Positions 22,752-26,264 of a DNA stretch of 64,000 bases are shown in pieces. Within the stretch, counting starts at the first letter, position 1. The number at the start of each line of letters is the position of its first letter. Origin of the DNA: Erysipelothrix anatis (GTDB lineage: Bacteria > Bacillota_I > Bacilli_A > Erysipelotrichales > Erysipelotrichaceae); contig NZ_WTSX01000003.1 of assembly GCF_009828745.1 (NCBI RefSeq), positions 1 through 64,000 on the forward strand, given 5' to 3'. Both the position numbers and the translations under genes were made by a program. The notes below the pieces were generated by a model. It made no database searches, was not told where the DNA came from, and was given only the letters and a program-made list of their open reading frames with translations.

Positions 22752-22752
22752 T

Positions 22753-22791
22753 AAAAAAGTGTTGACCGCTAAATATGGTCAACACTTTTTT
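22753..22791. terminator. Bidirectional terminator
   Basis: A 15-bp stem AAAAAAGTGTTGACC / GGTCAACACTTTTTT with a 9-nt loop separates the convergent pseudouridine synthase gene and the SipW locus. It overlaps the stop codon of the last SipW-locus gene. Confidence 0.9.
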
Positions 22792-23548
22792 ACGCCATTT
22801 TTTTCCAGACACGATCATCATCACCTGGTGCTACAACACCCTTGTTTTTAGAGTTATCTGCCGTAAGTAGTGAATATGTAGCATCACCATAACGCACGGA
22901 AACTACTTCACCCTGCAAGGATTTCGTATACAAGGCATTTTCCACATACTCAACATGATTCATCGGTGTCCAACCAACATCCGTTCCAGGGACATGACCC
23001 TGTTTATATTTCTGATTCGCAATGTACACAACGTTCTCGAAATACACTACAGATTGTCCATCAAATGGGTTCTTAGGAATCCCTTGCGTCTTAGTATACT
23101 TTCGATTCGAAAATGTAAGGTACGATGCAACCTGTTGCGCATTAAACGATCCATTTTTGTAGAAATACGCTATATCACCAGATACTGTATATCCTTCGTT
23201 TGGATGATTTTGTGGATTAAACGCGCCCAAATTATTGTTATAAATGGACATGATTTTGTGATTATACCAGGCTAGGTCATACGATTTCGTTTCATCTATG
23301 TCTTGCTTAATGAGATAGTAAAAACCCTGGTCGTCTTGTACGATGGTACCTGCGGCATATCTATTTCCCGGGACATATTTGGGAACGGAATTTCCAAAAG
23401 GTGATGAAAAATCACCAATGCGCATTGAAATTTTCGATTCTTTTTGGGTTCGGGCAACATCAAATGTGTCCCACATAGCTTTGATACTCACCGTCATTGT
23501 GATCAAAATGATGATCATGAGCAATGGCGTATATTTTTTTACATTCAT
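22790..23548 (-). CDS. Secreted PG..GWT-motif protein B of the SipW locus (CBM5/12-like)
   Basis: A 252-residue protein with an N-terminal membrane or signal segment (about residues 8-26). It then has two short modules of chitin-binding (CBM5/12) style: YVPGNRYAAGTIVQDDQGFY near residue 57, and an aromatic module with VVYFENVVYIANQ and VPGTDVGWTPM near 170-210. The tail GDDDRVWKKM resembles the end of its paralogue at 24797-25663. The CBM likeness is by pattern only. It is the last of five genes, starting 12 bases after the TasA-like gene. A good AGGAG precedes the ATG. Confidence 0.75.
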   Translation of the reverse strand: MNVKKYTPLLMIIILITMTVSIKAMWDTFDVARTQKESKISMRIGDFSSPFGNSVPKYVPGNRYAAGTIVQDDQGFYYLIKQDIDETKSYDLAWYNHKIMSIYNNNLGAFNPQNHPNEGYTVSGDIAYFYKNGSFNAQQVASYLTFSNRKYTKTQGIPKNPFDGQSVVYFENVVYIANQKYKQGHVPGTDVGWTPMNHVEYVENALYTKSLQGEVVSVRYGDATYSLLTADNSKNKGVVAPGDDDRVWKKMA

Positions 23549-23560
23549 AGTTAGGACTCC

Positions 23561-24199
23561 TTATTGTGGCGTTACCGTGATGTTAATATCAAACGCTATC
23601 GTAGATTCCTTTACAAAGTCATAATGCTCTTTCGTTGGTGGCATCCCCAGCTGAAAAGCATGCTTAAATGCTTGGAGATTGCCATCACCCAAGAAAATGT
23701 CACGAGTTGCACCAAATGAAATTTCGTTTACCCAATTTGGGTTTGATGTATCGCGATTTGCTGTGATAGGTGTTCCTGAAAAGAGAATGAGATTGAGATA
23801 AGACTCATCATCTCGCCTTTCTGTGATTCCATCGATATTTTTTTGAAATCGAAAATTACTATAAACAACCTGTAGCGTTCCTGGATGTCCTGTCGCAAAA
23901 TCAGTTCCATCTTCTTCCCAGGATACTGAGTATCCTGTTTCCAATGTATCAACCGACTTTCCCTCAACGGCTTTTCCTTTTGGAACGAGAGGTAGTTCTG
24001 TATTTTTAAATATATTTAAATCACCAATTTGTGTCGATACGGTTACCGTATCTCCGCTTCCAATTTTCATTGTATTTGTCTTTGTTACTTCTGATGGTGG
24101 AGATACGGTTCCATCAAACCAGTAACTCCACGTAAAACCTGTTAATAATAACGCTAAAACAGATAGTGAAATTAAAGCAATTAACTTATCGCGTTTCAT
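23561..24199 (-). CDS. TasA-like secreted protein 2, SipW-type signal
   Basis: A 212-residue protein. Its signal (LISLSVLALLLTGFTWSYW) is the SipW-dependent type of TasA/CalY/TapA proteins: hydrophobic stretch, then G.TWSYW with a Gly-Thr after it. The mature part is beta-rich, as expected for a fibre subunit. It ends with AFDINITVTPQ, closely matching the end of the first TasA-like protein (VKVRLSVTPL). In Bacillus such proteins polymerise as matrix fibres after cleavage by SipW. It lies downstream of the SipW-type peptidase. Confidence 0.8.
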   Translation of the reverse strand: MKRDKLIALISLSVLALLLTGFTWSYWFDGTVSPPSEVTKTNTMKIGSGDTVTVSTQIGDLNIFKNTELPLVPKGKAVEGKSVDTLETGYSVSWEEDGTDFATGHPGTLQVVYSNFRFQKNIDGITERRDDESYLNLILFSGTPITANRDTSNPNWVNEISFGATRDIFLGDGNLQAFKHAFQLGMPPTKEHYDFVKESTIAFDINITVTPQ

Positions 24200-24261
24200 T
24201 ACTTCCCCTCAATGATTCTTCTATTTGTTAATTAGTCTTGACTCAGATACCAAAAAACGAC

Positions 24262-24819
24262 TCAAACACGCAATGTGTCTAAATCATCTTTTGGGGAATC
24301 TTCATCTTTTTCATAGTAGACATGCACTATGGTCAATACAATTGCAGTTAATGCGACCAAGAGAATTGGCACCGCATTGTTGTAAAGTGGGATAAGCAGA
24401 TGACCTACTTTAGGTATGGTCATAACAACTTTTCCACGAATTTGATTACCGTGAATTGTCCAGGTATCCATCGTTTCACTTACATTTGGTTTTGTTCTGT
24501 AGTTATTTCCATCAATTTCCGCAATATAATGTGTAACCAGCTCGAGTGTTCCGTCTCCATCAATATCGACATCAAAAGTAATAATATCATCTACCTTTAA
24601 GGTCTCAGGAGTTACTCTTTTGACAACAATTAAATCATTTACATTGATCACAGGTGTCATACTGTCGCTGATAACCACATAAGAACTATGCTTAACGACG
24701 TGCGACATTACGTTTGGAAAAAAGCGTATTGCACCAATTACCAACGCTAAAATAGCGATGATAAGGTAGAATGCGATAGATCCAACCTCACGTCGTTTAG
24801 TGGTTTCTTTTTTGTTCAT
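24262..24819 (-). CDS. sipW: SipW-type signal peptidase I
   Basis: A 185-residue signal peptidase of the ER/archaeal class, with two membrane helices (about residues 15-35 and 150-172). The nucleophile lies in VVISDSMTP. Where Bacillus-type enzymes use lysine, this one has histidine in LVTHYIAE, the Ser-His pattern of SipW. The ATG at 24819 follows TGGAGAAACG. It overlaps the preceding gene by 23 bases and lies between the two TasA-like/partner pairs, which are its likely substrates. Confidence 0.92.
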   Translation of the reverse strand: MNKKETTKRREVGSIAFYLIIAILALVIGAIRFFPNVMSHVVKHSSYVVISDSMTPVINVNDLIVVKRVTPETLKVDDIITFDVDIDGDGTLELVTHYIAEIDGNNYRTKPNVSETMDTWTIHGNQIRGKVVMTIPKVGHLLIPLYNNAVPILLVALTAIVLTIVHVYYEKDEDSPKDDLDTLRV

Positions 24820-25663
24820 ACGTTTCTCCACTTCGTAACGCCCAAACTGTTTCATTTTCACCTGGTTTGATGTATTCGCCAGTTTGAGGGTCTTTGTTGC
24901 TTTTCGTTCGCAGTTGATAAACAATATTTTTTCCGTTTTCATTCATTACAACAGATACGGGATATCCTTTGTATTTTACATACAGATAGTTTTCATTAAA
25001 AACTGGATCATTTAATGAAGTCCATCCTTTTGATTCACCAGGAACTGGTCGACTCGAGCCATCATAGTCTTGATTCGTGATGTAAAGCTTATCTTTGTGC
25101 CACACAACTTGATTCTTCCCTTTAAATTTGGGATTTATATATGCTTGGGGATTGTTGCGATTCAATGCAACAGCTGCATATCCAGTTTTATAGCGTTTGG
25201 TAGCATCAAAGAGATAGGTTGTAATATCTTCATGCATGATACGTTTTCCATCTTCAAACCGACTGATATGGTAGTCATCGAAGGTGTAAAAACCATGTAA
25301 ATATCTGTTCGACACGTTATCAGGCACCGAGTCAGATAATATTCTGAAGGGGGATACGTCGTCAGGGTATCGTGATGGTTCACGGTGAATTCCTGATTCG
25401 ACTGGATTAACAACCACATAAATATCGCCTCGTGATTCGAATAATTCACCGATACGGTATTTACGATTTAAATCGTAATCTTTTAAGAGATCATAATCCT
25501 TCGTTAGTGTCATGATACCGAGGTAATCATGAATTGTAACAGAGCATTCGACAGTATTACTTGCTGAGTTAACGCCATATGATTGCCAATAACTGTACGT
25601 TTTAGTAGATACAATCAAGCAGCCTAAGATGCTTAGAATCCCTATCAACACTCGTGCAATCAT
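24797..25663 (-). CDS. Secreted PG..GWT-motif protein A of the SipW locus (CBM5/12-like)
   Basis: A 288-residue protein with an N-terminal signal (about residues 3-28, followed by TYSYWQSYG). It is paralogous to the protein at 22790-23548. Shared features are YRIGELFESRGDIYVVV, VVWHKDKLYITNQ, VPGESKGWTSL and a tail GENETVWAL. The repeated aromatic-PG-GW pattern recalls carbohydrate-binding modules 5/12. It starts 10 bases after the first TasA-like gene and overlaps sipW, so it is translationally linked to both. It may anchor or cap the fibre; this is inference. Confidence 0.75.
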   Translation of the reverse strand: MIARVLIGILSILGCLIVSTKTYSYWQSYGVNSASNTVECSVTIHDYLGIMTLTKDYDLLKDYDLNRKYRIGELFESRGDIYVVVNPVESGIHREPSRYPDDVSPFRILSDSVPDNVSNRYLHGFYTFDDYHISRFEDGKRIMHEDITTYLFDATKRYKTGYAAVALNRNNPQAYINPKFKGKNQVVWHKDKLYITNQDYDGSSRPVPGESKGWTSLNDPVFNENYLYVKYKGYPVSVVMNENGKNIVYQLRTKSNKDPQTGEYIKPGENETVWALRSGETYEQKRNH

Positions 25664-25673
25664 TCAATAGCAC

Positions 25674-26264
25674 CTATAACGGAGTTACTGATAAGCGCAC
25701 TTTAACTTTAATAGTTTTGTTTGCAATTGCTTCGTATTCTGATTTATTTTTAGGTTCATTCATGGTTACTGATAAACCAATTGGAGTAGCTGTTGAATCA
25801 TTCAAAGTAATTGTCGGCATCGTTTCGTCAAATGTTGGTTTGATGAGTGATGTTGCAATCTTGTTGTCAGTATGGTTAACGTCAATTCCATCAATAGAAA
25901 CACCGAGAATTTCAGCTTTGATTGTTCCCTGTGCACCTGATGCAATTTCTTTACCGATTTGGTTTTCAGTCCATGTTGCATTAATTGTTAGTGCAGCATT
26001 AGAACTAAAAGTTGAGCGTTCGCCTTCGGATAGTTTGTTATAAATATCTGCAGGAATCAATGGTTTCGTTGTTGATCCGGGAGCAATCGTTAACGTTGTT
26101 TCGACTTCTTGGTTCTTGGCCGCTCCTAATACAACTGTATTTTCGCCATTTTCAGTTAGGTGGGGTTTGATAGTACCAGCATTCCAGTATGACCATGTGT
26201 ATCCTGTTAATAACAGTGCCAGTAAGATTAAGACGCTAATACTTACTTTCTTTGAATTCTTCAT
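25674..26264 (-). CDS. TasA-like secreted protein 1, SipW-type signal
   Basis: A 196-residue protein with the SipW-type signal SVLILLALLLTGYTWSYWNA near residues 9-28. The mature region is rich in Thr, Asn and beta-forming residues with no cysteine, typical of TasA/CalY (camelysin) proteins. It is the first gene of the five-gene locus and has its own promoter (26298-26326). Expected role: major subunit of an extracellular fibre or matrix, cleaved by the SipW-type peptidase two genes downstream. Confidence 0.82.
   Translation of the reverse strand: MKNSKKVSISVLILLALLLTGYTWSYWNAGTIKPHLTENGENTVVLGAAKNQEVETTLTIAPGSTTKPLIPADIYNKLSEGERSTFSSNAALTINATWTENQIGKEIASGAQGTIKAEILGVSIDGIDVNHTDNKIATSLIKPTFDETMPTITLNDSTATPIGLSVTMNEPKNKSEYEAIANKTIKVKVRLSVTPL

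Follow-up and report, generated by a model that had tools for sequence, protein, structure and literature searches.

What does a bacterium build when one SipW-type signal peptidase is encoded among two pairs of secreted proteins? The question is raised by five closely spaced genes at 22790-26264, on the minus strand of a 64,000-nucleotide stretch of DNA (the window, in what follows) from a 2.19 Mb Erysipelothrix genome close to E. aquatica. A known reference point is Bacillus subtilis, where SipW processes TasA and TapA, TasA fibres form by donation of an N-terminal strand to the next subunit, and TapA, with an N terminus similar to that strand, starts the fibre (PMC9674648, PMC10151520). The five genes are probably an operon whose products form a surface-associated, secreted protein fibre that has carbohydrate-binding subunits and is processed by a single dedicated peptidase of the SipW type; of these elements, fibre formation and the ligand are the ones that we infer.

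The gene order put forward in a sequence-only reading of the window, TasA-like 1, PG..GWT protein A, SipW-type peptidase, TasA-like 2, and PG..GWT protein B, is borne out, as is the tight spacing. TasA-like 1 (25674-26264, 196 residues) and A (24797-25663, 288 residues) lie 10 base pairs (bp) apart. The gene for A overlaps the peptidase gene (24262-24816, 184 residues from its conserved start) by 20 bp, counted from the peptidase ATG at 24816 instead of from the start of the longest open reading frame (ORF, 24262-24942); relatives align from this ATG, which has a GGAG motif upstream. A gap of 62 bp separates the peptidase from TasA-like 2 (23561-24199, 212 residues), and one of 12 bp separates the latter from B (22790-23548, 252 residues). 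All five genes have orthologues in the same order in E. aquatica with 90-97% amino-acid identity, and the ratio of nonsynonymous to synonymous substitution rates (dN/dS) between the two species is 0.10-0.19 across them, all five being under purifying selection. Because the order is kept at this identity and under these ratios, the run is not due to chance. E. aquatica was the sole match in a scan of genome contigs; the viral contigs searched gave no relative, and the plasmids searched with B. subtilis TasA gave no match.

The peptidase at the centre of the operon scores 52.0 bits against TIGR02228, the profile of archaeal and endoplasmic-reticulum-type signal peptidase I (S26B), just above the cut-off of 51.85. 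The profile for the Bacillus SipW equivalog, NF046067, needs more than 190 bits and gives 34.1 (E=2e-8). The catalytic serine motif SxSM(E/T)P, the histidine that replaces lysine, and the downstream aspartate are all present (SDSMTP, VTHY, and MDTW), at positions that are invariant among seven relatives. Judged by these scores and motifs, the protein is a SipW-type peptidase, as had been claimed, and a distant relative of Bacillus SipW rather than its equivalog. A profile search of the window genome found no second SipW relative; this one peptidase would therefore serve the four secreted proteins of the operon and also an orphan GWT protein encoded outside it (L012:10769-11569).

Each of the four secreted proteins carries a signal that such a peptidase could recognise. 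The G.TWSYW signals noticed earlier in the TasA-like proteins are confirmed, reading GYTWSYW in TasA-like 1 (26184-26264, ending in TWSYW) and GFTWSYW in TasA-like 2 (24119-24199). Signals of the same type, overlooked in that reading, also stand on the GWT proteins, as TYSYW in A (25586-25663) and in a degenerate form, KAMW, in B (23474-23548), and Y(S/A)YW is found in most of their relatives. The GWT proteins carry a SipW-type signal, so A and B are probably co-substrates of the peptidase, a prediction made from these motifs.

A and B are paralogues, as proposed, over their C-terminal 99 residues (35% identity, E=1e-8), and their kinship with carbohydrate-binding module (CBM) families 5 and 12 (PF02839) is traced through relatives. 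PF02839 matches 7 of 10 GWT family proteins, all below its cut-off, the best at 7.6e-4. Profile alignment (hhalign) of the C-terminal half of the GWT family with CBM5/12 repeats gives 28.8, where the shuffled maximum is 13.0. A 546-residue protein with a SipW signal, encoded beside two TasA-like genes in genome G309, contains eight CBM5/12 stretches (4e-28) and is picked up by the GWT family profile at 2.2e-15. Partners in other genera have either several repeats (PF02839 down to 3e-26) or one module of about 100 residues, and up to ten clear repeats occur. In A, which has at least one CBM5/12-like module, the core QVVWHKDKLYITNQDYDGSSRPVPGESKGWTSLND lies at 25007-25111 (hhalign of the A and B orthologues against CBM5/12 repeats, score 20.1), and in B the corresponding core is placed at 22958-23035 (residues 172-197) by hhalign and a weak CBM_5_12 match (E=0.17). 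A and B would thus be related to CBM5/12 through intermediates, and the CBM5/12 nature first claimed for the aromatic modules of the window proteins is supported by way of these relatives.

TasA-like 1 and 2 are likewise paralogues (BLASTP E=3e-15, 27% identity). A class-level profile that finds TasA-like 1 places the family in 49 of 395 genomes of the class, spread over 30 genera, a few of the weakest matches reaching the signal region only. Among 35 members, W27, LxP (L69 and P71), and P171 are invariant, and the N-terminal aromatic residue, the LxP motif, and an EP motif are present in nearly all. TIGR04088, the SipW-dependent signal profile, matches 7 of the 35 (best 4.5e-4), leaving TasA-like 1 of the window unmatched.

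The association of these families extends well beyond the window. The unit of TasA-like, GWT, and SipW genes recurs with its order unchanged in four other species of Erysipelothrix (G003, G005, G010, and G012; loci L014, L015, L016, and L035) and in G244 (L056), which belongs to a different genus of the family. Within Erysipelothrix, a single-protein search finds the TasA-like gene in 6 of 13 genomes. Across 51 genomes, which were picked for having a TasA-like match and are not an unselected sample, 21 of the 33 CBM5/12 ORFs have a TasA-like gene within 3 kb, against 0.19 expected, and a SipW relative occurs in 48 of the 51 genomes that hold the TasA-like family. A frequent order in other families is TasA-like, TasA-like, CBM partner, and SipW-type genes. 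Related TasA-like/CBM5/12/SipW gene sets are present in many low-GC Gram-positive genera, across the class.

In the proposed working of the system, SipW would cleave all four proteins just before or within the YW motif. Cleavage would free an aromatic-led N-terminal strand, which would insert into the next subunit as the TasA donor strand does. The CBM-type partners could enter the fibre to nucleate it, to anchor it, or to form its tip, much as TapA enters by means of an N terminus like that of TasA, and their CBM5/12 modules would hold the fibre to polysaccharide, which may be chitin, glycans of the host, or the capsule or wall of the cell itself. The second pair, TasA-like 2 and B, which has diverged and lies downstream of the peptidase, would give either two fibre/partner sets or a mixed fibre.

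Entry of the partners into the fibre is suggested by an N-terminal segment (YW...TxxIG) that they have in common with the TasA-like proteins. A TxxIG motif follows YW in 24 of 35 TasA-like proteins (3.2 in shuffles) and in 11 of 21 partners (1.4 in shuffles), and the TasA-like and partner profiles each match the N terminus of the other family, in matches that also span the signal. With a hidden Markov model (HMM) of the mature TasA-like N terminus, most partners score no better than shuffled sequences, so that the case for a shared strand is built on how often the motif occurs and on the cross-matches. That a CBM partner would enter the fibre by the same strand and so tie it to polysaccharide is supported, though not proven, by these comparisons. 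A broader proposal, whose chances we put slightly short of even, is that of an undescribed, class-wide fibre system that depends on SipW. In it, a TasA-like fibre protein would be exported together with a CBM5/12 lectin subunit carrying the same N-terminal assembly strand, yielding sugar-binding donor-strand fibres, and the E. aquatica lineage would pass two such fibre/lectin sets through a single peptidase.

Several results weigh against a sugar-binding fibre. The homology to TasA claimed for the 196- and 212-residue proteins is not supported: PF12389 (TasA/camelysin) matches neither the window proteins nor the 35 family members, and hhalign of the mature domain against TasA and camelysins reaches 10.8-11.5, at the level of shuffled sequences (maxima 12.2-13.5). 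Against TasA alone the score is 18.7, with 15.8 for shuffles, across 34 columns. Searches of TasA-like 1 and the profiles against Protein Data Bank sequences returned no match or chance matches only. A fold comparison with TasA gives a weak, suggestive match: the predicted model of TasA-like 1 is beta-rich and of modest confidence (predicted local distance difference test, pLDDT, 63, from four sequences), and TasA 5OF2 is the second match by Foldseek (E=0.043); a VIA alignment runs from one end of the two to the other (118 residues, Z 4.6), where unrelated beta-sandwiches tie. The mature part being without support for TasA homology, "TasA-like" names a possible mode of working and not family membership. 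On the side of the partners, PF02839 stays below its Pfam cut-off in the window (A unmatched, B 12.4 bits against 26.2), the model of A is unusable (pLDDT 36), and the export signal of B is degenerate; the linkage genomes, as said, were a chosen set. NCBIfam matches of TasA-like 1 to NirJ, a radical S-adenosylmethionine protein, are due to chance, being partial, far under cut-off, and unrelated to a secreted protein.

The alternative that survives best, itself unlikely, is that the partner is a TapA-like assembly factor whose CBM5/12-like fold contacts the fibre protein and not a sugar. The N-terminal segment common to partners and TasA-like proteins is what such a factor would have, as TapA and TasA do (PMC9674648), and compared with CBM5/12 the modules in A and B are degenerate; against it, some relatives have as many as ten clear CBM5/12 repeats, more than an assembly factor needs, and TapA itself is an immunoglobulin (Ig)-fold protein (PMC10151520). 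Slightly less likely still, the four proteins may act separately, as non-polymerising adhesins or lectins exported through SipW. The lack of demonstrable TasA or camelysin homology in the mature domains fits this, as does genome G475, where a SipW-signal RCC1-repeat protein neighbours the TasA-like genes, indicating that SipW loci export various proteins. The N-terminal aromatic, LxP, and EP residues kept in nearly all TasA-like members speak for polymerisation instead, since such residues sit at the TasA protomer interface (PMC10151520), a comparison by analogy and not by alignment. The G475 protein (L120:5030-6535) carries RCC1 propeller repeats and lies between two TasA-like genes, at the place of a CBM partner.

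The favoured fibre operon also has to account for its second pair. The sequence-only reading had taken the doubled pair around one peptidase as an arrangement not known to it from described systems; the doubling is indeed unusual, and the three-gene unit itself is common in genus and class. Of the genomes covered, the window genome and E. aquatica alone show the five-gene form, and the doubled pair is a lineage-specific elaboration of the E. aquatica lineage. Judged by sequence divergence, the two pairs are old, and a recent tandem duplication is unlikely: TasA-like 1 has 41% identity to the G003 protein and 35% to TasA-like 2. Trees do not place the source of the second pair. That this pair is a relic of duplication, now in decay and with no role of its own, is very improbable, for, despite the degenerate signal of B and a distribution confined to the E. 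aquatica lineage among the 13 Erysipelothrix genomes, TasA-like 2 and B show dN/dS of 0.12 and 0.19 and intact frames in both species.

The orphan GWT protein outside the operon, a third one, has a counterpart in E. aquatica (L013:7134-7934) and clusters, at 87/95 support, with the GWT protein encoded in the three-gene unit of G003. Near the orphan gene, E. aquatica has three secreted-protein genes (L013:9527-13447), one WxL-like by look, which are missing at the matching place of the window genome (L012).

Among known systems, the tapA-sipW-tasA operon of B. subtilis resembles this one in that a dedicated SipW-type gene adjoins the genes of a candidate fibre protein and of a partner, both secreted, in that partner and fibre protein have an N-terminal segment in common, and in that the partner gene overlaps sipW. 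It differs in its Ig-fold TapA, where the partner here is of a CBM5/12-type family; in addition, the fibre candidates here have no detectable TasA homology beyond the signal region, and the pair is doubled. Two paralogous SipW-exported proteins around one SipW are also found at the sipW-tasA/calY locus of B. cereus (two camelysins, CapP), where they form mixed filaments (PMC13082335). B. cereus, unlike the window genome, has no CBM5/12 partner, and its assembly factor is CapP (DUF4047). The modules of A and B share with CBM5/12 the V.Y.G..Y......PG....W core, of which relatives have many repeats; they differ in that they follow immediately on a SipW-type N terminus, in proteins that have no catalytic domain, and in that A and B are divergent, with an insertion before the core.

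The BsaA-type loci of clostridia, which are pilus-like and SipW-dependent, likewise join such a peptidase to structural proteins that are large and secreted; these proteins are of another family. A separate, unrelated-looking second SipW locus, with tandem large proteins and a SipW relative, occurs in G003 (L037:797-11720) and G010 (L038:5392-12260). The signals of the tandem proteins read TLAWQDVSQHKTNKF or similar, and the G003 locus adds a large protein of repeats whose C-terminal end is sortase-like. We take these loci to resemble the BsaA/pilus-type SipW loci.

To our knowledge, SipW/TasA matrices are known mainly from Bacillus. Matrix-fibre export of the SipW/TasA type is already known, including two paralogous fibre proteins in B. 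cereus (PMC13082335); no description of a CBM5/12 partner or of the class-wide linkage was found in the open-access papers searched. If the fibre reading is true, related fibre systems with a built-in sugar-binding partner are widespread in other Bacilli, including Erysipelotrichaceae, which would account for the attachment of such fibres to polysaccharide. It would also become testable whether a partner with the N-terminal strand of the fibre, TapA in B. subtilis and CBM proteins here, is a general rule.

Some of the related loci vary in their peptidase genes. In seven wider loci (L103, L104, L108, L109, L110, L118, and L122), three peptidase-like genes follow the CBM partner; the outer two are of SipW type, and the middle paralogue lacks the serine motif SxSMxP and may be a partner with no catalytic activity. 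The first peptidase-like gene of G342 has T where the catalytic S is expected. In G008, which is a related species, a GWT/CBM5/12-like stretch with an in-frame TAG (L036:1-329), possibly a pseudogene, stands directly upstream of an intact SipW gene.

As for the ends of the operon, a promoter scan gave fewer sites than shuffled sequences, and no promoter is therefore claimed. A strong hairpin terminator of 17 pairs (22752-22792, called on the plus strand) has runs of T on both strands and reaches into the stop codon of B. It lies between the operon end and a convergent pseudouridine-synthase-like gene and is common to both, and, as read from its palindrome, it is a terminator with two-way use.

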